Assembly (NCBI RefSeq): GCF_021531435.1
Contig: NZ_JAFBIS010000002.1
Location: 62,001 to 126,000, forward strand
Direction: 5' to 3'
Origin: Oscillibacter valericigenes
GTDB lineage: Bacteria; Bacillota; Clostridia; Oscillospirales; Oscillospiraceae
DNA length: 64,000 nt
Position numbers and translations under genes: made by a program. Within the stretch, counting starts at the first letter, position 1. Every line of letters starts with the position of its first letter. This document shows positions 14,443 through 54,978 of this stretch, one piece after another. The notes beneath the pieces are model-generated. The model was given only the letters and a program-made list of their open reading frames with translations, was not told the DNA's origin and made no database searches.

Positions 14443-14517
14443 GGTGACATAGCCAAGTGGTAAGGCAAGGGTCTGCAAAACCCTGATTCCCCGGTTCAAA
14501 TCCGGGTGTCACCTCCA
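14443..14517 (+). tRNA. tRNA-Cys(GCA), integration target
   Basis: Acceptor GGTGACA/TGTCACC, anticodon GCA in loop TCTGCAAAA region, encoded CCA at 14515-14517. Its last 23 bases (14495-14517) recur at 27181-27203, so the 3' half now present was supplied by the integrated island while the original 3' end was displaced 12.7 kb to the right. Confidence 0.95.
14495..14517 (+). repeat. attL core (tRNA-Cys 3' end)
   Basis: 23 bases identical to 27181-27203, covering the T-arm 3' half, acceptor strand and CCA of tRNA-Cys. Sequence outside the repeat differs on both sides (left: AATGAATC after it; right: GAAAGAGA). Confidence 0.92.
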
Positions 14518-14558: not shown

Positions 14559-14578
14559 ACCCTGAAACACGTTTTTAT

Positions 14579-14595
14579 CCTTATTTTTAGCCTTA
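14579..14595 (+). repeat. Left-end copy of the candidate integrase arm site
   Basis: 17 bases CCTTATTTTTAGCCTTA, repeated in the same orientation near the right end of the island at 27046-27062 within AGCCTTATTTTTAGCCTTA. Both copies lie 60-140 bases inside the att cores, as expected of arm-type integrase or Xis binding sites. Confidence 0.55.
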
Positions 14596-18388: not shown

Positions 18389-18560
18389 TGAGTATCCTCT
18401 CCTGTAGATTTGTCGACAGTCAGACAACCCCCTATCATTGTTCGGTATAAGCTTGTAAATTGCGGCAGTTGCAGAAACCCAACGGTGCAAGCAAAACGTC
18501 TAAAATATGGAAATCATTTTGCATTTTTCGCGTCCCACGGAGAATCGGAAAGAAAGGATC

Positions 18561-18600
18561 CCGGAACCCATTGCGGCGCAATGGGTTCCGGGGTGTTTTT
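18561..18600 (+). terminator. Orphan rho-independent terminator
   Basis: Perfect 14-bp stem CCGGAACCCATTGC with its complement, 3-base loop GGC, then GGTGTTTTT. No gene ends nearby on this strand, so it may terminate an untranslated RNA from 18.1-18.6 kb or be left from a lost gene. Confidence 0.8.
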
Positions 18601-19126: not shown

Positions 19127-21874
19127 ATGGCAGTGATGAGCGAAACAGAGCAGCTTTGCTATAACTGTTTCCAGCCTTACGAAGGAGGGGAAACCTGCCC
19201 ATACTGCGGGTTTGACCCGGTACAAAACGCGGAAAAATACCCCATTGCCTTGCCAGTTGGGACAGTGCTGAATGGACGATATATCGTTGGACGGGTGCTG
19301 GGTCAGGGCGGCTTTGGCATTACATATTTGGCTTTGGATACGCAGCTGAATGCCCGGGTGGCTATTAAGGAGTTTTTGCCCAGTGAGATTGCCAGCCGTA
19401 TTCAGGAAACTACGGTGTCTGTAGTATCTGGCGATAAAGCGGATGAGTTTACTTACGGTGCGGAGCGGTTCCTGGAAGAGGCCCAGACATTGGCTAAGTT
19501 CATCGGCCATCCCAATATTGCCGGTGTTTCCAGCTACTTTGACGAGAACGGTACGTCCTACTTCGTTATGGACTATATCGAGGGCGTCAGTTTTAAAAGC
19601 TATATTGCCAATCAGGGTGGCCGGGTCAGCGTGCAGGAGACGCTGGATGTGATGATCCCGGTCCTGCGGGCGTTGACAGCCGTTCATCAGGAGGGTTTCA
19701 TCCACCGTGATGTTACGCCTGACAATATTTATATTTCCAAGGATGGCAATGTGAAGCTGCTGGATTTCGGCTCTGCCCGATACAGCATTGGCGATAAAAG
19801 CAAAAGCCTGGATGTTATCCTGAAGGTTGGATACGCTCCCAAGGAGCAGTACATCCGCCGCGGTCGTCAGGGCCCTTACACAGACGTGTATTCCTGCGCA
19901 GCCTGTATGTACGCAGCGATTACCGGCTATCTGCCGCCGGAATCTCTGGAACGGCTGGACAAGGACGATATCGTCAGCATCACCGACAGCGGTATTGAGA
20001 TCCCGGCCTGGCTGGACTACGCCATCATGAAGGGCCTTGCTGTGCAGCCGGAGGACCGGTTCCAGAGCGCGGAGGAGTTCCTGCGCGCTATTGAGGAGCA
20101 GTCTATGACCGAGGCGGCGGTGCCTGCCGCTGTAGCAGCGGAAAAGGCCGCAGCAGCTACCGCCAAGAAAAACAACACCAGGATGATCGCGGGTATCGCG
20201 GCTGCCTGCCTTGCAGTTGCAGTTGGCGCTGTGGCATTGCTGGGCGGCGGAAGTAAGCCGGCCGCTTCCAGCAGCGGCAACACCAGCGGGCCGCCGCTGA
20301 TCAAATCGGAGGTTCCGAGCATCACAATTGCGGGTCAGGAATACAGCACAGATCTGCGGAATTTAAACCTGCATGAGATGGGTCTGACGGATGCAGACAT
20401 CGAGCCTTTGAAGTACATGGTGAATCTGCAGTCTCTGAACCTGCAGAAAAATAATATTACGGATATCTCCTGTCTGGAAGGGCTGACGCAGCTGAGGGAT
20501 CTGTACCTGCGGGAAAACGACATCACCGATCTTTCCCCCCTGGCGGGCATGACAGAGATGATGTATCTTAATTTGGCGGAAAATACCAATATTTCTGATC
20601 TTTCGCCCTTGGCCGGCATGACCAAGATGAAAGAACTGAATCTCCCATTCAAGAATACGATTTCTGACCTTTCTCCACTCTCCGGTATGACGGAATTGGA
20701 ATATCTTGGTATGGACGGCTACTGGGGTACCGGCAATACCATCTCGGACCTAAGCCCGCTGGAGAATCTGACCAATCTGAAGCAACTCGCTTTGGGAGTG
20801 GACCAGTTGGAGGATCTGAAACCTCTGGCAGGGCTGCATAAACTGCAGGAACTGACGCTGTACGGAGAAATGAATATCTCCAGCCTGAACGCGCTGAGTG
20901 GGTTGACCAGTCTCAAAACTTTGCGCCTGAGTACAAATACGGGCAACTCTACATGCGTGTTTGTGGAAGACCTCAGCGGCCTTTCCAACCTGACGCAGAT
21001 GGAAACTCTGGAACTCTACTGCAGCGGTCTGAAGTCTTTTAAGGGACTGGAAGGGATGACCTCTCTGAAAAAGCTCCAGATGTATGTTGACTCCGGCCTG
21101 CAGGACGTCAGTGCGCTGAAGGGGCTGACGGCCATGGAGGAACTGAATATATGGAACAGTAGCAGCAACAACCCCTGGCTGAAGAACCTGGATGCGTTTT
21201 CCAATATGACGAGACTGCAGACGCTTCAATTCAGTGCGGATGGCCTGGAAAATCTGGATGGTATTGCAAATCTGACCAATCTGCAGACGCTTCGCCTTTA
21301 TGGCAGCGATGCTACCTATTCCGACGTCAATGCCCTGTCCAAGCTGACAAAGGTGAAGGAACTGTATCTTCCCGGCACAAAGGACTATCAGATGGTGGAC
21401 TTCAGCGGCATTGAAAATATGACGGAGCTAACAAGCTTTTCTACATCTGCCGGAGTGAAGAGCTATCAGCCCTTTGGAAAGCTGACAAAGCTCAAAACAT
21501 TGGCCTTGTATGCATATTACCAGGATGGAAGCCGTCCTGCTGATCTGGAGGCGCTGGGCAATCTGAGCCAGCTGACCAGCCTTCGGATCAGCCTGGGTGA
21601 TGGTGAAACAGACATTACCGCACTGGGTAAGCTAACGAATTTGCGGGAACTGAATCTGTATGACTACACTTTAAAAAATGGTTTACAGGATATCAGCCCG
21701 CTGGGGAAGCTCACCAATCTGCAGACCCTGTCACTGTCTGCCCGAAATGTCCGGGACATTTCGCCGTTGGCCAATCTGCGGAATCTGAAAAGTGTGGAAA
21801 TCCGCAAGTATAAGGATAATCAAATCGCCGATCTGTCTCCGCTGGACCATGTGCCCAGTGTGACCATCAACTAA
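19127..21874 (+). CDS. Transmembrane Ser/Thr protein kinase with zinc ribbon and LRR ectodomain
   Basis: 915 residues. Zinc ribbon C11-C14...C24-C27. Hanks-type kinase domain about 50-330: glycine loop LGQGGFGITYLA, Lys81 in VAIKEF, HRDVTPDN with Asp195 (Thr in place of the usual Lys after HRD), DFG Asp213 and the GYAPKEQY activation segment. A single membrane helix begins at about residue 353, followed by a short linker and a large outer domain of 20-odd leucine-rich repeats of the SDS22/internalin type (LSPLAGMTEMMYLNL). No PASTA domains. The LRR part probably senses an extracellular ligand and the kinase phosphorylates the FHA proteins encoded downstream. First gene of a six-gene operon; next start is 22 bases on. 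Confidence 0.93.
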   Translation: MAVMSETEQLCYNCFQPYEGGETCPYCGFDPVQNAEKYPIALPVGTVLNGRYIVGRVLGQGGFGITYLALDTQLNARVAIKEFLPSEIASRIQETTVSVVSGDKADEFTYGAERFLEEAQTLAKFIGHPNIAGVSSYFDENGTSYFVMDYIEGVSFKSYIANQGGRVSVQETLDVMIPVLRALTAVHQEGFIHRDVTPDNIYISKDGNVKLLDFGSARYSIGDKSKSLDVILKVGYAPKEQYIRRGRQGPYTDVYSCAACMYAAITGYLPPESLERLDKDDIVSITDSGIEIPAWLDYAIMKGLAVQPEDRFQSAEEFLRAIEEQSMTEAAVPAAVAAEKAAAATAKKNNTRMIAGIAAACLAVAVGAVALLGGGSKPAASSSGNTSGPPLIKSEVPSITIAGQEYSTDLRNLNLHEMGLTDADIEPLKYMVNLQSLNLQKNNITDISCLEGLTQLRDLYLRENDITDLSPLAGMTEMMYLNLAENTNISDLSPLAGMTKMKELNLPFKNTISDLSPLSGMTELEYLGMDGYWGTGNTISDLSPLENLTNLKQLALGVDQLEDLKPLAGLHKLQELTLYGEMNISSLNALSGLTSLKTLRLSTNTGNSTCVFVEDLSGLSNLTQMETLELYCSGLKSFKGLEGMTSLKKLQMYVDSGLQDVSALKGLTAMEELNIWNSSSNNPWLKNLDAFSNMTRLQTLQFSADGLENLDGIANLTNLQTLRLYGSDATYSDVNALSKLTKVKELYLPGTKDYQMVDFSGIENMTELTSFSTSAGVKSYQPFGKLTKLKTLALYAYYQDGSRPADLEALGNLSQLTSLRISLGDGETDITALGKLTNLRELNLYDYTLKNGLQDISPLGKLTNLQTLSLSARNVRDISPLANLRNLKSVEIRKYKDNQIADLSPLDHVPSVTIN

Positions 21875-21896
21875 ACGAACAGAGGAGGATTCTTCC

Positions 21897-22646
21897 ATGG
21901 CACAGATCGAATGTGGGCGGGGACATTTGTATGATCCCGAGGTACATCCCACCTGTCCTTACTGCAATGGAAACCAAAGAATTACAGTGGCTGCGGCCGG
22001 ACGTACGGCTCCCCTCCGCACGGTGGACATGAACCGGACAGCACCTGTTTCTGTGACGGCACCCCAGCCTACCGCACCGCTGAACCGCGTGCCCGTGGCA
22101 GAAGGCGGAAAGACCATGCCGCCCAAGGGCTACGGGATGAGTGTTACAGATGCCAATAAGACCATGCCTCCCAGAGGATACGGCGGGGCTTCTGTGCCGG
22201 AGCGGACGGCTGCTCCGGCCGGTTATGGAACCAGTGTGACTGCTGCCGGCAAAACAGTGGGTGTTATGCAGGCTAAAATGGGACTTGATCCGGTAGTTGG
22301 CTGGTTGGTTTGCGTGGAAGGTCCCAGCCGCGGCAAGAGTTATACCATTCGCGGCGGCATCAACTCCATTGGTCGCAGTGACCGTATGGATATCGTGATT
22401 ACCGGGGACATGAAGATCTCGGCGGAAAATCATGCCAAGGTCAGTTACAGCGACAAAAACAACAGGTTCAATCTGATTCCCGGCGACGGGCGGAATATCG
22501 TGTATCTCAATGATGATGAGGTCTTTTCCGCTATGCCGCTGAAGGCCTACGACATCATTGATTTCGGTGAGACCAAGCTGATGTTTGTGCCCTTGTGCGG
22601 AGAGCATTTTACCTGGAAAATGGGAGCGGAAAATGGGATTGTTTGA
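21897..22646 (+). CDS. Zinc-ribbon FHA protein with spaced Thr motifs (likely kinase substrate/adaptor)
   Basis: 249 residues. N-terminal zinc ribbon C6...C20-P-Y-C23, echoing the ribbon of the kinase. The middle is a low-complexity stretch with [KR]T motifs at about 16-residue intervals: T73 and T89 in KTMPP(K/R)GYG, T104 in RTAAPAGYG, T120 in KTVG, plus RTAP at T37 and T48. The C-terminal FHA domain (about 133-249) has GRSDRMDIVI, the SAENHAKV phosphothreonine pocket and VYLNDDEV. The layout resembles GarA/OdhI and Fha proteins, where an N-terminal pThr binds the FHA domain. No membrane segment. It overlaps the next gene by 14 bases. Confidence 0.88.
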   Translation: MAQIECGRGHLYDPEVHPTCPYCNGNQRITVAAAGRTAPLRTVDMNRTAPVSVTAPQPTAPLNRVPVAEGGKTMPPKGYGMSVTDANKTMPPRGYGGASVPERTAAPAGYGTSVTAAGKTVGVMQAKMGLDPVVGWLVCVEGPSRGKSYTIRGGINSIGRSDRMDIVITGDMKISAENHAKVSYSDKNNRFNLIPGDGRNIVYLNDDEVFSAMPLKAYDIIDFGETKLMFVPLCGEHFTWKMGAENGIV

Positions 22647-23469
22647 CAGGATTTTTGGGCGGAATGCTTCCGCACCGGATAAACCTGCCGCACCTGGGGC
22701 GCCTGTGCGGCGAGAGCCGTCCAATACCATCCGCATAGCAAACCTGCAGGGTATTGGCTGCCGGGAAGACCAGGAGGATTCCTTCGGAATCGCCAATGCT
22801 GCCGACGTGACGGAGATGTCCCGCCGCGGACTGTTTGCCGTAGTGGCAGACGGTATGGGCGGCATGGAAGACGGGAAGATGGCCAGCGAACTCGCAGTAG
22901 AGAACTTTCTGGAACTTTTTCGTTCAATGCCGGAGGACGCAGAGGTCTCGCAGTATTTGATGGAGGGCACCCATGCTGTCAGTCAGCACATTTTCAACCA
23001 GTGCGCGGGGCGCAGCGGGACAACACTGGTAGCGGTGCACATCCTGGGAGATGCGCTGAACTGGATCAGTGTGGGTGACAGCGCCATCTTTTTGGGGCGC
23101 AATGGCGGTGTGTTCCAGGTGAACCGGGAGCATACCTGCCTGAATGACCTTTATCTGGATGCGCTGGAAGAAGAAATCATTGACCGTGCGCGAGCGGAGG
23201 AAGATCCGGACGGTCGAAGACTAACGGCATTTCTGGGCATTGATGAATTGAAGATGATCGACAGGAGCCGACAGCCGCTGCACCTCCTTCCCGGAGACCG
23301 GCTGCTGCTGTGTTCTGACGGTATCAGTGGTATCCTGACGCCGCCCGAACTGCTGGAGGCAATGACCGTGGAGCCTGAAGAAGGCTGCAGGCTGCTGGAA
23401 ACTTTTGTGGCTGAAAAGGCGCTTCCGCAGCAGGATAACTATACGGCGATCATGATTGCCTACAAATAA
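22633..23469 (+). CDS. PP2C-type Ser/Thr phosphatase (first copy)
   Basis: 278-residue PPM phosphatase. A 35-residue Pro/Ala/Arg-rich N-terminal extension precedes the domain. Metal and catalytic motifs: CREDQEDSFG, VVADGMGGMEDG, the GTTLVAVHI strand, VGDSAIFL, LLLCSDGISG and the terminal QDNYTAIMIAYK. No membrane helix, so cytoplasmic. The ATG at 22633 lies inside the end of the FHA gene (14-base overlap), indicating coupled synthesis. It would reverse phosphorylation set by the LRR kinase. It is one of two PP2C enzymes in the operon; they are clearly diverged and probably not interchangeable. Confidence 0.92.
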   Translation: MGLFDRIFGRNASAPDKPAAPGAPVRREPSNTIRIANLQGIGCREDQEDSFGIANAADVTEMSRRGLFAVVADGMGGMEDGKMASELAVENFLELFRSMPEDAEVSQYLMEGTHAVSQHIFNQCAGRSGTTLVAVHILGDALNWISVGDSAIFLGRNGGVFQVNREHTCLNDLYLDALEEEIIDRARAEEDPDGRRLTAFLGIDELKMIDRSRQPLHLLPGDRLLLCSDGISGILTPPELLEAMTVEPEEGCRLLETFVAEKALPQQDNYTAIMIAYK

Positions 23470-23496
23470 GAAAAATCAGGACAGAGGAGAAACGAT

Positions 23497-24699
23497 ATGA
23501 AAAAACTTCGCATTCTTGGTGTAACTTTACTGACGATTCTAATGGTGGGATTGACTGCAGTGCCTGCAATGGCGGCATTTGACAGAACTGTGCTGGACAG
23601 TATCATTCTGATTTATGCCGGTGCCCCGGATAAGGACGGCCTGATGAACTATTGGCGCGGCACGGGCTTCTTTGTGGGCAAAGAGGGAGAAAAGCCCCAA
23701 TATATCATCACGAACTGCCATGTGGTGGAAGATTTCATCCTGGCCGGCAAAGCGTCCGGCGGCGGGGAACTGAAGGTCATGTATGGCAAGGATGATGAGG
23801 AAGAGGCTTATCTGGTGGATTATGACTATGAAAAGGATGTGGCTGTGCTGCGTCTGGCTGAGCCAACCGATAAGCGGGTCGCCCTTATGATGCAGGAACC
23901 GTCTGAAGATATGCTGGGCACGACTGTTCATGCCGTGGGATTCCCCCAGGCGGCAGATCTGACTGTGGAAGCAGTGACCTCTTTCAGCAGCAGTGACGCC
24001 AGTGTCACTACCGGCAGTGTCAGCCGCTTTCTGACGGAGAGCGGTACCGGCCGTAAGCTGATTCAAACGGATGCCGCCCTGAGCGGCGGAAATTCCGGCG
24101 GCCCGCTGACCACGGAGAACGGCACTGTCATCGGTATCAATACCGCCGGCTCTGCATTGGATCAGAACCTGTTTTATGCGGTCAGCGTCAGCGAGGTCAT
24201 GCCGCTTCTGACCCGCAATGATATTGCATACGGCGTTTACAGTGAAAAGGGAAGTTCCAACATGACAATGATCATTGCGATCGCTGCCGTAGTGATCCTT
24301 GCTGTAGTGGCTGTCGTCATTGTGATGAGTAAGAAGAAAAAGCCTGCCAAAGCACAGGAGGCTGCGGGAAAGAAACCTATTCCTGTGGTGCGTTCCATGG
24401 CGGCCCAACATAACGGACAGACCGTCCAACTGCACAATCAGCCTATCCAAATCGGCCGTGACCCGGCTGTTTGCCGCATTGCTTACCGTGATGGTACGCC
24501 TGGCGTCAGTTCCAAGCACTGCCAGGTGTATTACAGCGAGGGTGACAATGCATTTGTGGTGACGGATCTGAACTCTACGTACGGCACGTTCCTGTCCAAT
24601 GGACAGCGCATTGCTCCCAATGTGCCCACCAAGATGGCGCCCAAGAGCTCTTTCTATCTGGGCGATGCCGAAAACACCATCTATCTGGACTTGGAGTGA
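23497..24699 (+). CDS. Membrane-anchored trypsin-like (S1C/HtrA-type) protease with cytoplasmic FHA domain
   Basis: 400 residues. Signal sequence 1-27 (MKKLRILGV...AMAA). Protease domain about 28-245 with triad His in IITNCHVVEDF, Asp in EKDVAVLRL and Ser in LSGGNSGGPLT, all present; no PDZ domain. Membrane helix about 254-277 followed by KKKK, then a C-terminal FHA domain (about 300-400) with IGRDPAVCRI, GVSSKHCQVYY and DLNSTYGTFLSNGQRI. The topology puts the protease outside and the FHA inside, so kinase status could gate outer proteolysis or the reverse. Such FHA-S1C fusions are rarely described. It starts 27 bases after the PP2C gene. Confidence 0.9.
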   Translation: MKKLRILGVTLLTILMVGLTAVPAMAAFDRTVLDSIILIYAGAPDKDGLMNYWRGTGFFVGKEGEKPQYIITNCHVVEDFILAGKASGGGELKVMYGKDDEEEAYLVDYDYEKDVAVLRLAEPTDKRVALMMQEPSEDMLGTTVHAVGFPQAADLTVEAVTSFSSSDASVTTGSVSRFLTESGTGRKLIQTDAALSGGNSGGPLTTENGTVIGINTAGSALDQNLFYAVSVSEVMPLLTRNDIAYGVYSEKGSSNMTMIIAIAAVVILAVVAVVIVMSKKKKPAKAQEAAGKKPIPVVRSMAAQHNGQTVQLHNQPIQIGRDPAVCRIAYRDGTPGVSSKHCQVYYSEGDNAFVVTDLNSTYGTFLSNGQRIAPNVPTKMAPKSSFYLGDAENTIYLDLE

Positions 24700-24702
24700 T
24701 CT

Positions 24703-25428
24703 ATGAGAATAACCGCCTATTCCTACACCAACCAGGGCGGCCGGGAGCATAACGAGGACAGCGTCCGCTGTGCTTTCGGCGAGGCGGGAAGTGTTTTTCT
24801 CCTGGCAGACGGTCTTGGCGGACACGGCTGCGGAGAAGTGGCTTCCCGGATGGCTGTGGATAGCATATATGAGGGGTGTACCACACTGAAGACGGCCTCT
24901 GCGGAAATGCTCCTGACTTTGATGAACGACGCCAACAACAGGATTTTGAATGCACAGAGCAGTCCGGAGCAGTCCGATATGCGTACGACTGCGGTGGCAT
25001 TGCATATCACGGATCAGCGGGCGGCCTGGGCCTATGCGGGCGATTCCCGCCTGTACCATTTCAGCGGCGGTCAGATAGCCCATGTGACGAAGGATCACTC
25101 TGTCACTTACCGTAAATATATGGGCGGGGAGATTTCCTACATGGATATTTATCATGATGATGACCGGACTCGCCTGATGCGGGTTCTGGGCAAGGAAAAC
25201 TGTCGTCCGGAGGGAGAAGAAACAGAAGTTGCGCCGGGAGATGCGTTCTTGCTCTGCTCGGATGGTTTCTGGGAGTATGTATATGATGAGGAAATCCTGA
25301 TTGATTTCCTGAAATCCGAGAGCCCTGCACAGTGGGCCAGGAATATGCTGCTGCGGCATATCCGCCGTGCCGCACCGGGAAATGACAATTTTTCACTGAT
25401 CACTGTGTTTGTGGAGGAAGAAACATGA
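24703..25428 (+). CDS. PP2C-type Ser/Thr phosphatase (second copy)
   Basis: 241-residue PPM phosphatase without extension or membrane helix. Motifs: GGREHNEDSVRC, LLADGLGGHGCGEVAS, TTAVALHI, YAGDSRLYHF, LLCSDGFWEYV and the terminal GNDNFSLITVF. Only three bases separate it from the preceding stop, and it overlaps the VWA gene by ATGA. Closer to the stand-alone StpP type than the first PP2C. It may act on the membrane FHA proteins or on the kinase. Confidence 0.92.
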   Translation: MRITAYSYTNQGGREHNEDSVRCAFGEAGSVFLLADGLGGHGCGEVASRMAVDSIYEGCTTLKTASAEMLLTLMNDANNRILNAQSSPEQSDMRTTAVALHITDQRAAWAYAGDSRLYHFSGGQIAHVTKDHSVTYRKYMGGEISYMDIYHDDDRTRLMRVLGKENCRPEGEETEVAPGDAFLLCSDGFWEYVYDEEILIDFLKSESPAQWARNMLLRHIRRAAPGNDNFSLITVFVEEET

Positions 25429-26927
25429 GACATTTAAAAATCCTGCTTTCCCTCTGCCTTGCAATGCTGTTGGTGCCGGTTTCTGCCTATGCGGCAGGAG
25501 AGGTGGATGTGGTGCAGACATTGGTGCAGGATGACACTCTTTACCTGTGGATGGATACCTCTGCGCTGAGCGATCCTGTGACACAGGTGAATGCAGAGAC
25601 AAACGGGGTCATACTGCCGGTTGCAGGGACTTTGCAAACGGTTGCCCAGGTGGACGGCGGCAGCTATTGTATTTTTTTGCTGGACCGATCCGGCTCCATG
25701 CCCAAGCACAAACAGGAGATCCTGAACTTTATGGATGCCTATACGGCCACCTGCCCGGATGACAGCAAATATGCGCTGGCTACCTTCGGTGATGAGTTTG
25801 AACTGGTAGCTGATGATCTGGATGGGGAGGATTTGGCTGCGGCTCTGGATCAGGTCAGCTACAGCACACAGAACACCAGGCTGTATGAAGGTACGGCAAA
25901 AGCGTTGGATCATCTGGCGAAGCGGCAGCGCCGCGGCGGAGAAATACACAGCCTTGTATTGCTGACAGACGGTGTGGAGGATGCGCCAAGTTCTGCAGTG
26001 ACATTTGAGGAATTGCTGGAGCTTGCTAGTGAAGCAGGTGTACTGTTGCATGCAGTAGGCTTTGGCGATGATCAGGCATCCCTTGAGAAGCTGCAAGCCA
26101 TTGCAGAAGCGGGCGGAGGACGCTGCGGTGTTCCCGGAGCAGAGCTTAGGCCTGCTGCGTTGGCAGAACAAATGACAGCAGAGATGAATCTGCTGCGGAT
26201 GGCTACATTTGACCTGTCCGGCTATACTGGTCCCAAAGGCCCGCAGAGCGTAAAACTGACGTTGGCTGCCGGGGCGCAATTGCTGGGCAAAACCGAGGCG
26301 GTGGTAAATTTATCCGGTGGTACAGGCAGCGGCATGGAAACGCAGACAGTGCTGCCTGACGAGGGCTCGGAAGAGAAAGATCATATCCCTCCGACGGCTG
26401 AGGAAAGAGAGCCGGAAGCTCCTTCGGCAGAAGGAGCGCTCCCTGAAGTGAATGCAGAACTGCAGGATGCGGCAGCTGCAGAGAAAGAGACGCCCGCTGT
26501 GAGCAGTATCGTAATCGCCGGAGCTGTGGCGGCTGTGGCGGCAGTCGTTCTGGCAGTTGTAGCGTTTATGAAACGCAAAAAGCGGGATCAGCCCGAACAG
26601 TCTTCTGAGGAACCTGTTTCACCAGACAATGACCCCAATCAGGGAATTTATATGCGTCTGGAGGTAGAGCAAGGCACTTATATCGGAAAACAGACTGATT
26701 TTGGCTTGGAAGATGAGTTGCTGGTTGGATTGGGCGGGCACATTGCTTTCTCCCAATTACCGGCTCGCAGTGCCCGTATCTTTGCGGCAGATGGCGTCGT
26801 GTATATTGAACCGCTAGAGTTTGTTCAGGAAGTGTGTGTGAATGGCTTGCCGATAGCCATGCCCAATATTCTGCGAAGTGGGGATATCATTACGATTGGA
26901 GAAACGCAATTTTGCCTCAAATTTTGA
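25425..26927 (+). CDS. Secreted-domain VWA protein with membrane helix and degenerate FHA domain
   Basis: 500 residues. Signal sequence 1-24. VWA domain about 78-260 with a complete MIDAS: DRSGSM, a Thr in NTRLYEGTAKAL and LLTDGVED. A beta-rich stretch and an acidic linker follow. A membrane helix at about 362-385 ends in MKRKKRD. The C-terminal about 95 residues look FHA-like (GTYIGKQTDFGL, VCVNGLPI, GDIITIGETQFCLKF) but lack the Gly-Arg and Ser-x-x-His pocket residues, so phosphothreonine binding may be lost. Last gene of the operon. The VWA part is expected outside the cell, binding a metal-dependent ligand. Confidence 0.88.
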   Translation: MRHLKILLSLCLAMLLVPVSAYAAGEVDVVQTLVQDDTLYLWMDTSALSDPVTQVNAETNGVILPVAGTLQTVAQVDGGSYCIFLLDRSGSMPKHKQEILNFMDAYTATCPDDSKYALATFGDEFELVADDLDGEDLAAALDQVSYSTQNTRLYEGTAKALDHLAKRQRRGGEIHSLVLLTDGVEDAPSSAVTFEELLELASEAGVLLHAVGFGDDQASLEKLQAIAEAGGGRCGVPGAELRPAALAEQMTAEMNLLRMATFDLSGYTGPKGPQSVKLTLAAGAQLLGKTEAVVNLSGGTGSGMETQTVLPDEGSEEKDHIPPTAEEREPEAPSAEGALPEVNAELQDAAAAEKETPAVSSIVIAGAVAAVAAVVLAVVAFMKRKKRDQPEQSSEEPVSPDNDPNQGIYMRLEVEQGTYIGKQTDFGLEDELLVGLGGHIAFSQLPARSARIFAADGVVYIEPLEFVQEVCVNGLPIAMPNILRSGDIITIGETQFCLKF

Positions 26928-27180
26928 TAAGTTGAGCGGCTTGCGTACGTTGGAGAGTTGCTTTCGAGTTTATTCATAATGGATGAAAACGGGAATTCCC
27001 ATTCTTTAACTGAGTAGGCATGCCCTGCGTGGCTCAAAAATTTAGCCTTATTTTTAGCCTTAGGGGAATAACATCGGGCGGCTTTAGACGGGACAAGCTA
27101 AAAAGTTGAAATCAAGAAAACCATTGCGGCGCAACACTTTCCGGCATTTGCCAAAACCGGCTAAAACCCGGCTTGCTCGA
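26928..27180. other. Right end of the island, non-coding
   Basis: Holds the palindrome GGGAATTCCC (26992-27001), the arm-site copy at 27044-27062 and an ATTGCGGCGCAA word shared with the loop of the orphan terminator at 18561. No coding frame of interest. Confidence 0.6.
27044..27062 (+). repeat. Right-end copy of the candidate integrase arm site
   Basis: AGCCTTATTTTTAGCCTTA, itself two AGCCTTA heptamers separated by TTTTT, matching the left-end copy at 14579-14595 over 17 bases. Confidence 0.55.
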
Positions 27181-27203
27181 TTCAAATCCGGGTGTCACCT
27201 CCA
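27181..27203 (+). repeat. attR core (displaced tRNA-Cys 3' end)
   Basis: 23-base exact copy of 14495-14517. The tRNA 5' half is missing here, so this is the ancestral 3' end of tRNA-Cys pushed right by integration. Confidence 0.92.
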
Positions 27204-27206
27204 GAA

Positions 27207-27456: not shown

Positions 27457-28497
27457 ATGGGCAGATCAGGCGGTGGAGGCGGCCATGGCGGCGGCTTTTC
27501 CGGCGGGGGATTCTCCGGCGGCGGTCGCTCTTCCGGAGGCTTTTCCGGCGGCCGCAGCAGCGGGCGTTCCGGCGGTTACGGCGGGGGCCGGCCCAGCGGC
27601 GGCCCTGGGTTTGGGCCGGGACCCGGCGGCTTCCGTCCCGGCTTCGGCGGCGTCCGGACAGGACCGATCATCATTCACAACGCACCCAGGTATGGCGGCG
27701 GCTCAAACAGCGGCGGAAACCGCAATGGCCGGAAGAACAGCGGCTGCGGGACGGCACTTTTGATCGTCTGCGTTGTATTGGTACTGCTTGCGGTGCTTTC
27801 CGCGGTGATGGGAGCGGCTTCTTCCGGAGGCAATATTCAGAAGTCTACATACCAGCGGGAAAAGCTGCCCGCTTCGGCGGTCGTGGAGACCGGATATTAT
27901 ACGGACGAGGGCGGCTGGTTCTCCAACTGGAATGAACTGGAAGCAGGCATGAAGTCCTTCTACCGGGAGACCGGCGTGCAGCCTTACCTGTACCTTCTGC
28001 CGAATGGAACGACGACCTCCGTCAGCGAGCTGACCGGGTTCGCGGAGGAGCTGTACGGAGAGCTGTTCCAGGACGAGGGACATTTCCTCCTGGTGTTCTG
28101 CGACGATAACAACGGCAGCTATAACTGCGGCTACACCGTGGGCAGCCAGGCCAAGACCGTCATGGATGATGAGGCCATCGCTATCCTGGCGGACTATCTG
28201 GACCGATATTATAACGACTACTCCATCAGCGAGGAGGAGATCTTCTCCAAGACTTTTGAAGATACCGGGGAGCGCATTATGACGGTGACGAAATCCCCCG
28301 CGGGAACCATTGCGGTGTGCGTGGCTGTCATCATTGTGGCGGCGCTGGTGTTCGTCACCCTGAAAAAGCGCCGGGAACAGAAGGAGAAGGAACAGCGGCA
28401 GATGGAGGACATCCTGAAAACACCGCTGGAGAAATTCGGCGACCAGGATGTGGAAAACCTGGCAAAGAAATACGAACAAGACAGCAAATCTGAATAA
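27457..28497 (+). CDS. Gly-rich TPM-domain-like membrane protein
   Basis: 346 residues in four parts. An N-terminal Gly/Ser/Arg-rich low-complexity region (1-85, GGGFSGGGFSGGG type) is followed by a membrane helix (about 97-120). A roughly 150-residue outer domain (WFSNWNELEAGMKSFYRETG...LVFCDDNNGSYNCGYTVGSQA) resembles TPM/YgcG-type phosphatase-like folds. A second membrane helix near 285-307 and a basic C-terminal tail complete it. The Gly-rich part appears cytoplasmic. It is encoded 22 bases before a PspA gene, which suggests a membrane-stress role, in line with TPM proteins beside PspA in Firmicutes. Start has AGAGAGGAGAG upstream. Confidence 0.72.
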   Translation: MGRSGGGGGHGGGFSGGGFSGGGRSSGGFSGGRSSGRSGGYGGGRPSGGPGFGPGPGGFRPGFGGVRTGPIIIHNAPRYGGGSNSGGNRNGRKNSGCGTALLIVCVVLVLLAVLSAVMGAASSGGNIQKSTYQREKLPASAVVETGYYTDEGGWFSNWNELEAGMKSFYRETGVQPYLYLLPNGTTTSVSELTGFAEELYGELFQDEGHFLLVFCDDNNGSYNCGYTVGSQAKTVMDDEAIAILADYLDRYYNDYSISEEEIFSKTFEDTGERIMTVTKSPAGTIAVCVAVIIVAALVFVTLKKRREQKEKEQRQMEDILKTPLEKFGDQDVENLAKKYEQDSKSE

Positions 28498-28519
28498 ACA
28501 TATCGAGAGGAGAAACGAC

Positions 28520-29200
28520 ATGGCGATTTTGGAACGTTTCGGAGACATTATCAAGGCGAATATCAACGACCTGCTGGACAAGTGCGAGGACCCGGCGAAG
28601 ATGATCGACCAGTATCTGCGGGACCTGACGGAGAGCCTGGCCGAGGTGAAGAAGGAGACCGCCGGCGTCATGGCGGAGGAGACCCGGGCCAAGCGGATGC
28701 TGGACGAAAACGCCGCTGAGATCGAAAAGTACGACGGCCTGGCCCGGAAGGCCCTGACTGCCGGCAACGAGGGCGACGCCAAGGTGTTCCTGAGCAAGAA
28801 GCAGTCCCTGGTGGAGAAGTCCGTCAGCCTGCAGGCCACCTATGATGCGGCTCACGCCAATGCCCAGAAGATGCGCCAGATGCACGACAAGCTGGTGAGC
28901 GACATCGAGGAGCTGAACGGCCGCCGGGAGATGGTCAAGGCCAAGATGGCCGTGGCCAAGACCCAGGAGAAGGTGAACAAGGTGGCCTCCAGCACCGACA
29001 AGGCCGCCGGAGCCATGGACGCTTTCGCCCGCATGGAGCGCAAAGCCGACCAGATGCTGGACCAGGCCAACGCCATGGCCGAGCTGTCCGCCGCACCCAA
29101 GGACGAGGCCGCTGAGCTGGAGGCGAAGTACGCCGCCCAGGGCAGCTCCTCCGCCGTGGACGCCGAGCTTGCCAAGCTGAAGGCCGAGATGGGACTGTAA
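28520..29200 (+). CDS. pspA: PspA/IM30 family membrane-stress protein
   Basis: 226-residue, almost entirely helical coiled-coil protein of the PspA/Vipp1 family. The N-terminal amphipathic helix ILERFGDIIKANINDLLDK and the next segment CEDPAKMIDQYLRDLTESL are diagnostic. Length equals ordinary PspA. It binds stressed inner membrane and forms ESCRT-III-like assemblies. It is cotranscribed with the TPM-like protein gene, 22 bases upstream. The start ATG at 28520 follows GAGAGGAGAAAC, and the longer open frame 5' of it is out of context. A strong bidirectional terminator follows. Confidence 0.92.
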   Translation: MAILERFGDIIKANINDLLDKCEDPAKMIDQYLRDLTESLAEVKKETAGVMAEETRAKRMLDENAAEIEKYDGLARKALTAGNEGDAKVFLSKKQSLVEKSVSLQATYDAAHANAQKMRQMHDKLVSDIEELNGRREMVKAKMAVAKTQEKVNKVASSTDKAAGAMDAFARMERKADQMLDQANAMAELSAAPKDEAAELEAKYAAQGSSSAVDAELAKLKAEMGL

Positions 29201-47363: not shown

Positions 47364-47819
47364 ATGGAGAAGAAACAGAATGAGGACGCCTTTTGCAGGG
47401 CCTATCTGCGGACGATGGATCCGGAACGGGCGGCTGCGGAGAGCGGATGCCGGAATGGATTTTCCATGCTGCGGCGCAGGACTGTCCGGGAGCGGCTGGA
47501 GCGGATGCGGGAGGCCGCGGCGGGACAGCTGCGGCGGGAGGATGTGCTCCGGCGGCTGGCGGAGCTGGCTTTCGGACGGGCCAATGACGGGGCTGGACTG
47601 GCGCTGCGGCCCGGAGAGACCGACCCGGAGGGACTGGACCTGTCCGCTGTGTCGGAGCTGAAGGTGACGGACAAGGGTGTGGAAGTGAAATTCGTGGACC
47701 GGGTGCGGGCGCTGGAGACGCTGTGGAACCTGCTGGAGAGCGGCGGCGACGGCGGCGCGGAGGAGCTGTACCGCGCCCTGGAGGACATCGCCGGACAGAT
47801 GGAGGACATGAATGGCTAG
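47364..47819 (+). CDS. Phage terminase small subunit (XtmA-like)
   Basis: 151 residues, basic and helical, with a helix-turn-helix-like start (EDAFCRAYLRTMDPERAAAESG) typical of PBSX XtmA. The DNA-recognition subunit of the packaging motor. ATG 47364 with GAGGAGGGG upstream. First gene of the xkd-type cluster; overlaps the large subunit by 8 bases. No repressor or promoter of phage type is visible upstream. Confidence 0.82.
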   Translation: MEKKQNEDAFCRAYLRTMDPERAAAESGCRNGFSMLRRRTVRERLERMREAAAGQLRREDVLRRLAELAFGRANDGAGLALRPGETDPEGLDLSAVSELKVTDKGVEVKFVDRVRALETLWNLLESGGDGGAEELYRALEDIAGQMEDMNG

Positions 47820-49056
47820 ACCGCTGCGGTTTTCCGCAAAACAGAGGAAAGTGCTGTCCTGGTGGTACCGGGATGAGTGGGAGGCCATCATCTGCGACGG
47901 CGCCGTCCGAAGCGGCAAGACCTTTTCCATGGGGCTGTCGTTCTTCCTGTGGGCCCAGAGCCGGTTCGACGGCCAGCAGTTCGGCCTTTGCGGAAAGACC
48001 ATCGGGTCCCTGCGGCGGAATCTCCTGGCGGAGCTGATACCCTATCTGCGGCGGCTGGGCATGACTGTGGGGGAAAAGCGGACGGAGAATCTGCTGACCG
48101 TCCGCTATCACGGGCGGGAGAACCGCTTTTTGCTGTTCGGCGGCAAGGATGAATCCAGCGCGGCGCTGATCCAGGGCAGCACCCTGGCGGGGGTGTTTCT
48201 GGATGAGGCGGCGCTGATGCCCCGGTCCTTTGTGGAGCAGGCCATCGCCCGGTGCAGCGTGCCCGGGAGCCGGCTGTGGTTCAACTGCAATCCGGAGGGA
48301 CCCCAGCACTGGTTTTACCAGGAGTGGATCCTGAAGGCGGAGGAGCGGCGGGCGCTGCGGCTGCACTTTACCATGGAGGACAATCCGGGGCTCTCGGCCC
48401 GCATCCGGGCCAGGTACCAAAACGCGTGCTCCGGCGTGTTTTACCGGCGGTTCGTCCTGGGAGAATGGACCGCCGCCCAGGGGCTCATCTACGACTTTTT
48501 CGATTCGGAGCGGGATGCCGTGGAGACGCCGGAGGGGCCGTTCTCCCAGTGGCGTATCTCCGTGGACTACGGAACGGCCAATCCAGCGTCCTTCGGCCTG
48601 TGGGGAAAGAAGGACGGCGTGTGGTACCGGACGGAGGAGTATTACTACGATTCCCACAAGGCGGGCCGGCAGCGGACGGACGCGGAATACGCCGACGACC
48701 TGACACGGCTGGCGGCGGGACGGGACATCGAACGGGTGGTGGTGGACCCGTCGGCGGCCAGCTTCATCGAAGTTTTGCGGCGGCGGGGGTTCCGGGTCAT
48801 CCGGGCGGACAATGCCGTGGCGGACGGCATCCGCACCACGGCGGACATGCTGCGGAGCGGGAAACTGGCGCTGTGCCGGGGATGCGCGGACTGCCTGCGG
48901 GAGATCGGACTGTACTGCTGGGATGAGCGCAGCGGCCGGGATGTGCCCCGAAAAGAACATGACCACGCCATGGACGAGATGAGATACTTTGCGATGGACC
49001 TGGCGGGGGAACAGGAGTGCGGCTTCGCGGCGGTGGCGGTGGAGCGGCGGCCATGA
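47812..49056 (+). CDS. Phage terminase large subunit (XtmB-like)
   Basis: 414 residues. ATPase domain with Walker A AVRSGKTFS and Walker B VFLDEAAL; nuclease domain with VDYGTANP, VVVDPSAASF and KEHDHAMDEMRY, whose acids form the metal site. All key residues are present, so DNA packaging activity seems intact. Length matches PBSX-type terminases. Overlaps the small subunit gene. Confidence 0.93.
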   Translation: MARPLRFSAKQRKVLSWWYRDEWEAIICDGAVRSGKTFSMGLSFFLWAQSRFDGQQFGLCGKTIGSLRRNLLAELIPYLRRLGMTVGEKRTENLLTVRYHGRENRFLLFGGKDESSAALIQGSTLAGVFLDEAALMPRSFVEQAIARCSVPGSRLWFNCNPEGPQHWFYQEWILKAEERRALRLHFTMEDNPGLSARIRARYQNACSGVFYRRFVLGEWTAAQGLIYDFFDSERDAVETPEGPFSQWRISVDYGTANPASFGLWGKKDGVWYRTEEYYYDSHKAGRQRTDAEYADDLTRLAAGRDIERVVVDPSAASFIEVLRRRGFRVIRADNAVADGIRTTADMLRSGKLALCRGCADCLREIGLYCWDERSGRDVPRKEHDHAMDEMRYFAMDLAGEQECGFAAVAVERRP

Positions 49057-49080
49057 GCGAATAAAAATCACAGGAGAGGA

Positions 49081-50229
49081 GTGCTGCGGTTGAAGTGGCG
49101 GAAACAAAAGGAGGCGCTGGCGGTTCCGGCGGTGCAGATCCGGAACGGTAGCCATCATCCTTTCGGAATGCTGGGGGATTATGTGCCCCTGCGAAATGGG
49201 GAAGTCCGGCTGTACAGGGCCGTCCGGGAGGCCGTTCCCGTGGTGGACGCGGCCATCTACAAGCTCATCCGTATGAGCGGGGGCGTGACGGTGTCCTGCG
49301 GGAGCCGGAGGGCGGAAGCGGCGCTGGCTGAGTTCTTAAGGACGGTTCCTGTGGGGCGTGGACAATTCGGCATCAACGCGTTTCTGGACTGCTACCTGGA
49401 TTCCCTGCTGACCTGCGGACAGGCTGTCGGCGAGATCGTGCCCGCGGCGGGAAACCGGGAGATCGCCGCGCTGCTGTGCGGCCGGGTGGAGGACATCGAG
49501 GTCAGGGAGGGGGAGAATCCCCTGACGTTTTCCATCTGGGGACCGGATGAGGGGGGACGGATGGCGGAGCTGCCTTACCAGGACCTGCTGCTGTTCACAC
49601 CGCTGAATCCCGAGGCGGACAGTCCCTATGGCGTGTCGCTGCTGCGCTCCCTGCCGTTTCTGGCGGATATTCTTATGAAAATCTATCACGCCACCGGCGT
49701 CAACTGGGAGCGGTGCGGCAACGTGCGCTTCGCTGTGACCTGCCGGAACGGAGACGGCACCGGCGCCGCGGAAAAGGGACGCGTTCTGGCGGAAGAATGG
49801 AGCAGGGCCATGCGGGACGGCGACGCTGTCCGGGATTTCGTGGCGGTGGGCGATGTGGACATCCGGGTCATCGGCGGCGACGCGCCTATCCTGGACAGCC
49901 AGGTGCCGGTGCGACAGATCACGGAGCAGATCGTGGCGAAGACCGGTATCCCGCCTTTCATGCTGGGGCTGAGCTGGAACTCCACGGAGCGGATGAGCAG
50001 CCAGCAGGCCGACATGCTGACCACGGAGATCACGGCCATCCGCCGGACACTGACACCGACAGTAGAGCGCATCTGCCGCCTGTGGCTGCGGATGCACGGC
50101 TACACCTGCGGCTTTGAGGTGGTTTGGAACGACATCAATCTGCAGGATGAGGTGGAGGAGGCCAGGGCGTTCCTCTACCGGGAGCAGGCGCGGAAGCTGC
50201 AGATTGAGAATGACGCGGCGAAAAAATAA
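49081..50229 (+). CDS. Phage portal protein (XkdE-like)
   Basis: 382 residues. SPP1/PBSX-type portal with the segments PVVDAAIYKLIRMSGG, PYGVSLLRSLPF and GIPPFMLGLSWNSTERMSSQQ. Forms the dodecameric ring for DNA entry. GTG 49081 start with AGGAGAGGA just upstream. The next gene starts 11 bases later. Confidence 0.9.
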   Translation: MLRLKWRKQKEALAVPAVQIRNGSHHPFGMLGDYVPLRNGEVRLYRAVREAVPVVDAAIYKLIRMSGGVTVSCGSRRAEAALAEFLRTVPVGRGQFGINAFLDCYLDSLLTCGQAVGEIVPAAGNREIAALLCGRVEDIEVREGENPLTFSIWGPDEGGRMAELPYQDLLLFTPLNPEADSPYGVSLLRSLPFLADILMKIYHATGVNWERCGNVRFAVTCRNGDGTGAAEKGRVLAEEWSRAMRDGDAVRDFVAVGDVDIRVIGGDAPILDSQVPVRQITEQIVAKTGIPPFMLGLSWNSTERMSSQQADMLTTEITAIRRTLTPTVERICRLWLRMHGYTCGFEVVWNDINLQDEVEEARAFLYREQARKLQIENDAAKK

Positions 50230-50240
50230 AGGGGGTTTGT

Positions 50241-51083
50241 ATGGACATCAGGGAGGAACTGGCGTGCATCAATCAGTTCGCCAAGACGGAGCTGACGGAG
50301 GAACAGGTCTACGTGTTCAGCGTGCGGCTGTGCGACAACGAGGTGGACCGGGACTTCGAGCGGTTCGACACGGCCGCCCTGGAGCGGCTGGGTGAGCTGT
50401 TCGTAGGCAAGAGCGGTATTTTCGACCACCAGTGGTCTGCCAAGGGCCAGACGGCCCGTATCTACCGCACTGAGGTGGTGCGGGAAGAGGCCATGGTGAC
50501 GGCCGCGGGAGACGGGTACTGCTGGCTGAAGGGCTGGGCATACCTGCTGCGGACAGAGAAAAACCGGGATCTGATCGCGGAGATCGAGGGCGGCATCAAG
50601 AAAGAGGTCAGCGTGGGGTGCAGCATGGCGCGAAGTGTCTGCTCCATCTGCGGCGCGGAAAACGGCGCCTGCGGCCATGTGCGGGGTGAGACGTACGATG
50701 GGCGGCTGTGCTTCACGGAGCTGCGGGAGCCGCAGGACGCCTACGAATGGTCCTTCGTGGCGGTACCCGCCCAGCGGAACGCAGGCGTTTTGAAGCGGTT
50801 TGAACAAAGCGGCGGCGGTTCGGCGGTCCTGGAAAAACAGGCGGCGCTGGGGCGTAAGTACCTGACGGAGCTGCGGCGTGAGGTGACACGCCTTGCCATG
50901 CTGACGGACGGCGACCTGGACGGCCAGGTGTTTGCTAAGGCGATGGATCGCCTGGAGGAGCCGGAACTGGTGGAATTGAAAAAGGCCTATGAGGTCCGGG
51001 CGGCAAAGAAGTTCCCGTCAGCCCCGCAGCTGCGCCGGAAAGACGCGGCGGAGCGGAGCGACGAAACGGTGTTCCTGGTATGA
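50241..51083 (+). CDS. XkdF-like prohead protease/scaffold
   Basis: 280 residues. The N-terminal about 180 resemble the XkdF/HK97 prohead-protease fold, with His in SGIFDHQWSA and Ser-Val-Gly-Cys (KKEVSVGCSM), plus a small cysteine cluster (CSICGAENGACGH) that may bind zinc. The C-terminal part is a helical scaffold-like tail. Cuts or organises the capsid precursor. Start ATG at 50241. Confidence 0.78.
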   Translation: MDIREELACINQFAKTELTEEQVYVFSVRLCDNEVDRDFERFDTAALERLGELFVGKSGIFDHQWSAKGQTARIYRTEVVREEAMVTAAGDGYCWLKGWAYLLRTEKNRDLIAEIEGGIKKEVSVGCSMARSVCSICGAENGACGHVRGETYDGRLCFTELREPQDAYEWSFVAVPAQRNAGVLKRFEQSGGGSAVLEKQAALGRKYLTELRREVTRLAMLTDGDLDGQVFAKAMDRLEEPELVELKKAYEVRAAKKFPSAPQLRRKDAAERSDETVFLV

Positions 51084-51162
51084 TACTGTTTTTGGGTCAG
51101 ACGATGAAATCGTTTGACAGGGCCGCGTTTGCGGCCCAGCCGCAAAAAATGTTGTTCCAGAC

Positions 51163-51239
51163 TGCCTTTACCGCCTTTGGCGGCGCGGCGGATCACGACG
51201 CACGCAAAACATTCCCAATGTTTTGCGTAAAGGGCAGTA
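51163..51239 (+). other. Structured intergenic region before the capsid genes
   Basis: Perfect hairpin ACGCAAAACATT/AATGTTTTGCGT around CCC (51202-51228), inside a larger pairing of ACTGCC...TTA with TAAAGGGCAGT. No T-run; may be an RNA-processing or stabilising element to raise capsid-gene expression. Confidence 0.55.
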
Positions 51240-51272
51240 TGACGGGAACGAAGAATATAAAGGAGGATGGAT

Positions 51273-51617
51273 ATGGGTATTTCTTTCGAGGGCATCGGCC
51301 AGTGGGCGGCTACCTTCGCCTGCGGTGAGACTGCCGTGGGCCAGGTGGTGAAGGTCAGCGGCAGCGGCGAGGTGGCGGCCTGCGCCGACGGCGACAGCTT
51401 CTGCGGCGTGGTGGTATTCGTCGCCAGAGACGGAGAGGCCTGCTCCGTGGCCCTGGGCGGCATGGTGCGGGTGCCCTACACCGGAACCGCGCCCGCTCTG
51501 GGCTGGACCGGCCTGGCCGCCGACGGCAGCGGCGGCGTCAAGGCCCTGACCACGGGCCGCAGCTACCTGGTGGCGGATGTGGATGAGGCCGCCAAGACCG
51601 TTACCTTTGCACTGTAA
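51273..51617 (+). CDS. Small capsid decoration-like protein (DUF2190 type)
   Basis: 114 residues, all-beta and Gly/Ala-rich (GQVVKVSGSGEVAACADGD, RVPYTGTAPALGW), similar to phage decoration or head-stabilising proteins. AAGGAGG to the ATG at 51273 is well spaced; the in-frame ATG at 51267 is too close. Placed before the major capsid gene, 14 bases apart. Confidence 0.78.
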   Translation: MGISFEGIGQWAATFACGETAVGQVVKVSGSGEVAACADGDSFCGVVVFVARDGEACSVALGGMVRVPYTGTAPALGWTGLAADGSGGVKALTTGRSYLVADVDEAAKTVTFAL

Positions 51618-51631
51618 GGAGGAGAGTGGAT

Positions 51632-52663
51632 ATGGCTTATCATTTTGAAAACGTCAAGCTGGAAAAAGGCATGTACGGACGCAGCGACCGCAGCTTCAGC
51701 CAGACGCTGGAGGAGCTGGACCCCAGCGAGCATTACCGCGGCACGCCCCTGGAGGGCATGGACGCTTTCCAGCGCCAGCTCAAGCGCTTTGACATCAAGG
51801 TCAAGGGCATTGGCAGCGACTGCGTGGAGAAGTTTTTCCTCAACACGGAGTCTGCCGTGCTGTTCCCGGAATTCGTTTCCCGTGTGGTGCGCCAGGGTAT
51901 GGAGGAGGAGAGCATCCTGCCCGACATCACCGCCACCGTGACCCGCTTTGACGGCATGGACTACCGCTCCATCGCCGCCATCCCCACGGAGGAGCAGAAG
52001 ACCCTGAAGCGCGTGGAGGAGGGCGCGGAGATCCCCAAGACCCAGATCCGCACCCAGGAGAATCTGGTGCGCCTGCACAAGCGGGGCCGGATGCTGGTGG
52101 CCTCCTATGAGGCCATCCGCTTCCAGCGGCTGGACCTGTTCTCCGTGACATTGCGACAGATCGGCGCCTACATCGGCCGGATGCATCTGGAGGACGCCAT
52201 CAAGGTCCTCTGTGACGGAGACGGCAACAAGAACCCCGCCCAGGTGTTCAGCGTGGGCACCAAGCCTATCTCCGGCACCGCCGGCACCCTGAGCTATGAG
52301 GCGCTGGTAGACTTCTGGAGCCAGTTCGACCCCTATACCATGAACACCCTGCTGGTCAGCAGCGACATGATGCTGGCCATGCTGAAGCTCAGCGAGTTCC
52401 AGAATCCCCTGACGGGCCTGAATTTCCAGGGCACCGGTACCCTGACCACGCCTCTCGGCGCCAAGCTGCTGCGCACCAGCGCCCTGCCTGCCGGCACCCT
52501 GGTGGGCCTGGACAAGAACTACGCCCTGGAGCAGATCTGCGCCAGCGAGATCACGGTGGAGTACGACAAGCTCATCGACCGCCAGCTGGAGCGGGCGGCC
52601 ATCACCTCCATCTCCGGCTTTGCCAAGCTGTTCGGCGAGGCGTCCAAGGTGCTGAAGGTCTGA
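51632..52663 (+). CDS. Major capsid protein (XkdG-like)
   Basis: 343 residues, HK97-fold. The KFFLNTESAVLFPEFVSR start region, the TVTRFDGMDYRS segment and the late VGLDKNYALEQICASEI strand are typical of PBSX-like capsid proteins. ATG 51632 with AAGGAGG at 51617. It should form the icosahedral shell; no truncation is visible. Confidence 0.86.
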   Translation: MAYHFENVKLEKGMYGRSDRSFSQTLEELDPSEHYRGTPLEGMDAFQRQLKRFDIKVKGIGSDCVEKFFLNTESAVLFPEFVSRVVRQGMEEESILPDITATVTRFDGMDYRSIAAIPTEEQKTLKRVEEGAEIPKTQIRTQENLVRLHKRGRMLVASYEAIRFQRLDLFSVTLRQIGAYIGRMHLEDAIKVLCDGDGNKNPAQVFSVGTKPISGTAGTLSYEALVDFWSQFDPYTMNTLLVSSDMMLAMLKLSEFQNPLTGLNFQGTGTLTTPLGAKLLRTSALPAGTLVGLDKNYALEQICASEITVEYDKLIDRQLERAAITSISGFAKLFGEASKVLKV

Positions 52664-54959: not shown

Positions 54960-54978
54960 CGCGTGAGAGGAGAACACG

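Follow-up and report, generated by a model that had tools for sequence, protein, structure and literature searches.

We analyzed a 64,000-nucleotide stretch of an Oscillibacter valericigenes genome (contig NZ_JAFBIS010000002.1, positions 62,001 to 126,000; hereafter the window) and a six-gene operon with the parts of phosphothreonine signaling at 19127-26927 on its plus strand. The operon encodes a receptor Ser/Thr kinase, a soluble FHA adaptor, two PP2C phosphatases (PP2Ca and PP2Cb), a protease and a VWA protein. All six open reading frames (ORFs) were found on the strand and at the positions where a preliminary description of this DNA had placed them, and their domains were confirmed by Pfam, with the FHA match in the tail of the VWA protein falling below cut-off (Table 1). 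Neighboring genes overlap or almost touch, which suits a single transcript. Scans for promoters and terminators returned little over shuffled sequences (12 vs 9.1, standard deviation 3.1; 13 vs 9.3, standard deviation 3.0). By eye, the true start of the PP2Ca gene is probably an ATG near 22633, overlapping gene 2, and not the TTG at 22585.

Among solved structures, PpkA is nearest in sequence to the kinase part (7.8e-52, with PknA, PknB and StkP near 1e-25), and internalin A is nearest to the LRR part (6.8e-68). The kinase residues are kept in the readable rows of the alignment (Lys81 in 26/26, Asp195 and Asp213 in 27/27); Asp195, named for a kinase-dead form in the preliminary description, is the HRD aspartate. 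The five PP2Ca motifs are kept in 42/42 rows. The His75/Asp114/Ser200 triad of the protease is kept in 40 (with one gap), 41 and 41 of 41 rows, and R321, S338 and H341 of its FHA domain in 40/40 readable rows. Hydropathy and signal sequences predict the topology of the operon proteins and place three different domains outside the cell, LRR, protease and VWA, as had been claimed.

The segment behind the zinc ribbon of the adaptor is rich in threonine. Across 36 adaptors this linker spans 97-138 residues and contains repeats of the types [KR]TAP, KTMPP[KR]GY and KTVG (for example RTAP, KTMPPRGY and GKTVGMMQ); Thr makes up 12.8% of it versus 5.3% for Ser, compared with 4.6% Thr in the FHA part. 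The inner linkers of the protease (3.1%) and the VWA proteins (1.7%) are Thr-poor. Adaptors from distant genomes carry, by eye, Thr motifs resembling KT, TVA and TEAP in the same segment. The Thr-rich array is a plausible phospho-acceptor and the likely phosphorylation scaffold.

The DxSxS motif of the VWA domain is kept in 38/38 rows, and the signal sequence together with a helix at residues 361-383 in the structural model (pLDDT 79) points to an outer VWA domain. In the model this domain resembles integrin I domains and is followed, beyond the helix, by a beta-rich tail; VWA matches prevailed in a fold search, with no FHA chain among the matches listed. The tail is the sole operon domain under its Pfam cut-off (0.0063; 17.4 bits against 20.7). 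Its FHA nature is suggested by sequence and by relatives with intact motifs, all three motif parts being present in 21/37 rows and GR in 28/37.

Conserved core and variable outer domains

Searching public genomes with a protease profile returned 42 loci, of which one (L081) was dropped as it matched in the protease domain alone (35%), leaving 41 close loci. L034-L039 were taken as the same DNA as L041, L064, L055, L057, L071 and L069, whose contigs have equal lengths. The close loci are mostly from Oscillospiraceae, with some from Enterocloster and other metagenome-assembled genomes (MAGs). In 30/41 the six genes have identical order and strand, and in the remaining 11 the contig stops before the set is complete. 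Within the genus, 14/86 genomes carry the operon, one copy each at E <= 1e-100. The preliminary description had proposed a profile search for the gene order and held that scattered members would speak against the grouping; order proved fixed in the 41 close loci up to the contig ends. The six genes are a real unit and their grouping is not accidental.

Describing the set as six genes is correct for the fixed part and undersells what surrounds it. More than 2 kb of sequence precedes the first kinase in 18 close loci, and an upstream helix-turn-helix (HTH) gene is present in 13 of them. A divergent small kinase accompanies this gene in 12 loci, of which 11 further encode one or two zinc-ribbon/membrane/beta-helix proteins. 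An example is L055 1476-3975, where an HTH gene, a divergent small kinase and zinc-ribbon/beta-helix membrane proteins adjoin the operon. The HTH gene lies downstream in three loci, from two Enterocloster MAGs. The window, the copy in O. valericigenes An860 (L040) and four other loci of the 18 are without it, and a search for the HTH protein in the rest of the window's genome, which had no positive control, found none. Tandem receptor kinases occur in at least 5/41 close loci (L051, L061, L065, L067 and L074).

Wider searches scored at most four candidates per genome, so their counts are lower bounds: 22/394 genomes of the order at E <= 1e-30 and 3/398 in a phylum-wide sample, the window's own genome included in both. 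Twenty distant loci were fetched, comprising 18 of the 21 other order-wide matches and both phylum-wide ones. In 18/20 we found a looser core of adaptor, PP2Ca, FHA-tailed protease and at least one kinase, in varying gene order; of the two exceptions, L116 is a contig of 5.6 kb that lacks a kinase, and L130 has only the protease. PP2Cb was recognized in 16/20, in one of them (L120) as a fragment. The VWA protein was recognized in just three (L115, L116 and L131), and L114 encodes a protein of the same size with an FHA tail and no VWA match. Some distant loci encode further membrane FHA proteins, of the RDD type in L114 and L115. Zinc ribbons are present in 28/32 distant kinases, and up to four kinase genes stand together in L133. 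In L065, L074, L051, L061, L067, L133 and L128, a single shared core is accompanied by two to four tandem receptor kinases whose outer parts differ. Elsewhere in the window's own genome, an FHA domain is fused to a membrane protein that by eye is FtsW/RodA-like (L001 1204-3075).

Conservation is unevenly spread over the proteins. Median pairwise identities, calculated for ORFs above 70% of query length and leaving out the An860 copy as nearly identical to the window, are 80% for the kinase part and 41% for the LRR part (27 close-locus proteins), 74% for the outer protease and 75% for its FHA tail (40 proteins), and 51% for the outer VWA domain of close loci. The window's VWA protein is divergent: its outer part has at most 34% identity to any other in the set, An860 left out, and a database search with the protein found just five clusters at 89-100%, its own included, among the 8000 candidates scored, those with most words in common. 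Relatives of the kinase include outer parts with BspA-type LRR. Of the 32 distant kinases, 19 have a membrane helix and more than 100 residues beyond it; these ectodomains matched 11 families in total, with LRR_5 in five, LRR_8 in three and a pectate-lyase-like adhesin in two (counts may overlap), and MORN, Beta-lactamase2, DUF4352 and DUF5050 in one each. The Beta-lactamase2 ectodomain (2.7e-42, in the L114-L133 set) resembles penicillin-sensing receptors in kind. Taken together, the sequences suggest a variable sensor and a constant output.

The island at tRNA-Cys

The operon is carried on a 12.7-kb integrative element at tRNA-Cys. Both hallmarks of a tRNA-targeted element were found, an integrase and direct attachment repeats of 23 bp at the tRNA 3' end, along with an excisionase-like gene and a second recombinase; the preliminary description of the operon as island-borne is borne out. 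Subterminal repeats lie near both ends, the left one a possible integrase arm site. No gene was recognized in the approximately 2 kb between the recombinase genes and the operon, where one ORF was scanned. An inverted repeat in this interval, terminator-like on the other strand too, is a possible two-way terminator separating the recombinase genes from the operon.

Related elements also occupy the tRNA-Cys site. We compared 20 stretches following tRNA-Cys in the genus, of which two are under 1 kb and one lacks the repeat. In 5/20 the tRNA gene precedes an integrase homologue, once with a second repeat copy in between, and sites without an integrase homologue also occur among these relatives. 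None of these could be identified as the empty counterpart of the window's site: the right-flank genes, for a Gly-rich membrane protein and a PspA-family protein, were seen in none of the 20 stretches (each at most 6 kb). Another search for an empty site, run without a positive control, also found none. L168, L173 and L179 likewise have elements at this tRNA-Cys whose integrases are related and which, by eye, carry primase-like and HTH genes.

The An860 copy is 96% identical to the window over 8.2 kb and has the same end repeat, with other DNA beyond. Synonymous divergence between the two is 0.03-0.21 in the six operon genes versus 0.22-1.10 in seven comparisons of six backbone genes; the lower values of the operon suit lateral spread, although the two ranges almost touch. 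At its own tRNA-Cys (L088 4358-16411), An860 has another 12-kb element whose integrase is of the same family (64% identity), followed by a second repeat and a stretch of 25 integrase-end residues 92% identical to that of the window. The claim that the system is mobile is supported for the present copy, and nothing links the set with mobile elements as a rule: a homologue of the window's recombinases was found on just 1/41 close contigs (L071), many contigs being short and other recombinases not having been sought. Beyond the island, a run of phage-like genes next to tRNA-Leu looks like a prophage or tailocin.

Table 1. Features of the window, with the operon genes first
Feature	Coordinates	Strand	Evidence or remark
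Receptor kinase: zinc ribbon, Ser/Thr kinase (45-345), membrane helix, LRR ectodomain (~390-915)	19127..21874	+	Pfam kinase 1.1e-31, LRR_4 4.6e-46; zinc-ribbon CxxC pairs by eye
Soluble adaptor: zinc ribbon, Thr-rich repeat linker, FHA domain	21897..22646	+	Pfam FHA 3.9e-6
PP2C phosphatase a	22585..23469	+	PP2C_2 8.7e-12; motifs
Protease: signal sequence, outer S1C (HtrA-like, no PDZ), membrane helix, inner FHA (topology predicted)	23497..24699	+	Pfam Trypsin_2 1.6e-24, FHA 2.4e-12
PP2C phosphatase b	24703..25428	+	PP2C_2 3.3e-15
VWA protein: signal sequence, outer VWA with MIDAS DxSxS, membrane helix, inner FHA-like domain (topology predicted)	25425..26927	+	Pfam VWA 1.6e-14
tRNA-Cys (GCA), integration site	14443..14517	+	3' end is the left repeat
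Left attachment repeat TTCAAATCCGGGTGTCACCTCCA	14495..14517	+	23 bp, tRNA-Cys 3' end
Subterminal repeat TTTATCCTTATTTTTAGCCTTA	14574..14595	+	95% to 27041-27062
Tyrosine integrase, 404 aa	14651..15865	-	Phage_integrase 2.7e-21, Phage_int_SAM_3, Arm-DNA-bind_4
Excisionase-like HTH_17 protein, 64 aa	15929..16123	-	4.3e-14
Second tyrosine recombinase, 305 aa	16113..17030	-	Phage_integrase 1e-13
Inverted repeat, 17 pairs, T-rich tail	18558..18594		
Subterminal repeat TTTAGCCTTATTTTTAGCCTTA	27041..27062	+	
Right attachment repeat	27182..27204	+	Exact 23-bp copy of TTCAAATCCGGGTGTCACCTCCA, partial tRNA-Cys 3' end
Gly-rich membrane protein, then PspA-family gene	27457..29200		PspA_IM30 5.6e-42
Phage-like structural genes	47812..59577		By eye: terminase, portal, capsid, tail sheath, baseplate
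tRNA-Leu	60427..60513		Adjoins the phage-like run

A proposed pathway and its alternatives

With slightly more confidence than doubt, we propose that the operon encodes a modular envelope receptor-kinase pathway in which a phosphorylated adaptor brings FHA-tailed surface proteins together and PP2C resets the system. We infer the direction of signaling, the phosphorylation of the linker and the docking as follows. The outer LRR, replaced by another ectodomain in other genomes, would bind a surface ligand and activate the inner PpkA-like kinase, which would phosphorylate threonines in the repeat linker of the zinc-ribbon/FHA adaptor. The inner FHA tails of the protease, and of many VWA relatives, would then dock on the phosphorylated adaptor or on the kinase. 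Docking would gather or activate the surface proteins, such that an event inside the cell controls proteolysis and VWA-mediated binding outside, and the two PP2C enzymes would reset the state.

Several observations weigh against this pathway. In the protease, N359 of the FHA domain is kept in only 31/40 rows, and the structural model is poor (pLDDT 56). The PP2Cb motif patterns match 39, 42, 42, 41 and 37 of 42 rows, three of them thus imperfectly, and the zinc ribbon is missing from 4/32 distant kinases. The inner FHA-like domain ascribed to the VWA protein in the preliminary description is recovered as a weak match, but in this genome its phosphothreonine-binding motif is lost (GR, SxxH and NGT parts), and GR is absent from the tail in 8 of the 36 other rows; docking of VWA proteins is therefore not general, or the window's VWA protein works otherwise. 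The correlation of pairwise distances from gene to gene is uneven (r 0.15 to 0.79), which may reflect recombination inside the operon. Finally, between the window and An860 dN/dS is 0.04-0.25 in the regions compared, leaving aside the FHA tail of the protease (dS 0). The LRR, at 0.25, gives no indication of positive selection, and its quicker change could be repeat drift and not ligand diversification.

That common domains came together by accident has next to no probability, and we reject it: each domain is common alone, but order and strand are fixed in the close loci and the core is kept across families. An unlikely explanation is a mobile defense or conflict system, in which phage or a competitor at the surface is detected by the LRR kinase, which then triggers outer proteolysis. 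It accords with the small tRNA-targeted island, the patchy occurrence in the genus and the divergent outer domains. The kinase domain also scores with PADLOC kinase models, among them PD-T4-6 (2.3e-52) and mad6 (1e-45), but this is weak evidence, as Ser/Thr kinase domains match one another (a PknB_PASTA model scores 1e-48). PD-T4-6 is a one-gene kinase system, so a lone match cannot decide, and the PADLOC matches on the operon (kinase, protease and PP2Cb) include no full system set. Of 190 flank ORFs picked from the close loci, 114 were scanned, with no consistent pattern. Some match PADLOC families (type I restriction, DinG-like, IetA, PDC-M69, type IIG and three mad2-like), but none of the families listed (25 of 104) occurs in more than 3/114, a count made without a background set; Pfam on the same ORFs found LysR regulators in eight, along with other regulators and metabolic enzymes (25 of 105 families listed). 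Matches were neither found in phages nor confirmed in viral contigs, a plasmid collection gave five partial protease matches, and the Pfam scan of the operon proteins showed neither nuclease nor toxin nor pore-forming domains. The phage sensing suggested in the preliminary description is not supported by these results, and a defense role lacks clear support other than mobility, patchy occurrence and a few scattered PADLOC matches.

We give equally little credence to regulated proteolysis, in which the outer protease acts as a site-1-type enzyme whose cut changes expression via the HTH protein. The HtrA/DegS-type protease fits this model, as does the HTH gene upstream in 13/18 loci and downstream in three loci. 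The window, An860 and the four other loci lacking that gene do not fit it, and among the operon proteins Pfam identified neither an anti-sigma factor nor an intramembrane protease. Marginally less probable still is inside-out control of adhesion, with the VWA protein as output, a metal-dependent adhesin, and the protease shedding it or the receptor. Considering that the VWA protein is rare in distant loci (3/20) while the protease is kept, it is unlike a core output.

If the receptor-kinase pathway is correct, it would be a clear example of how phosphorylation can control proteolysis across a bacterial membrane, and it would offer natural ectodomain swaps for finding ligands. The operon is small enough for expression testing and recurs across families of one order. 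More tentatively, and with doubt prevailing, the system might be a bacterial counterpart of receptor-kinase surveillance of the cell surface. Polymorphic kinases with swappable ectodomains, at times arrayed in tandem, would act through a shared Thr-array scaffold to switch a surface protease on or off from inside, allowing Clostridia to recognize neighbors, host surfaces or wall damage, at times spread by mobile islands.

Comparison with known systems

Among solved structures the kinase is closest to PpkA, which makes a Thr phosphorylation pathway the nearest kind. Such a pathway of type VI secretion (PpkA, the PP2C PppA and Fha) is named in PMC5995506. The operon resembles it in combining a membrane PpkA-like kinase, PP2C and an FHA protein, and differs in having an FHA-tailed outer protease, an adaptor with a Thr array, two PP2C enzymes and receptor domains that vary. 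Membership fails on the secretion apparatus, as the marker VipB had 0 matches in the window's genome (96.8% complete), with 1/14 control genomes, E. coli, positive.

TerY-P is a triad of zinc-ribbon kinase, PP2C and vWA, and its VWA protein is intracellular. The operon likewise has these genes adjacent, but with a predicted outer VWA, extra FHA proteins and a protease. Membership fails here on the association with ter, TerD having 0 matches in the window's genome (2/14 control genomes positive). The preliminary statement that the set is free of ter and secretion genes agrees with both searches. The theme of zinc-ribbon kinase, PP2C and vWA also occurs beside GAP1-N2 GTPases (PMC7159879); Pfam found no GTPase domain in the operon. 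PASTA kinases (PrkC/Stk1) were rejected at 166.8 bits against a cut-off of 450, the receptor having LRR and no PASTA. In Sulfolobus, the FHA and vWA pair ArnA-ArnB represses archaeal motility (PMC6509490); the operon's VWA, in contrast, is predicted outside, with an FHA-like domain on its inner tail.

By sequence the protease belongs to the family of HtrA, DegS and MarP and has the His-Asp-Ser triad intact, but Pfam finds no PDZ, and an inner FHA tail is predicted instead. Actinobacterial GarA/OdhI and FhaB are FHA proteins with a phosphorylatable N-terminal Thr segment, whereas the adaptor has a many-Thr repeat array behind a zinc ribbon and is not known to have a metabolic partner; its match to the NCBIfam FhaB model (3.6e-5) is below cut-off.

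Nearest known kinds therefore exist, while searches of the open-access literature aimed at the exact set found no description; the preliminary description had likewise known of none. Bacterial Thr-phosphorylation relays read by FHA domains are known mostly from secretion and metabolism. What would set the present operon apart is a receptor kinase with exchangeable ectodomains coupled to an outer protease via FHA tails.

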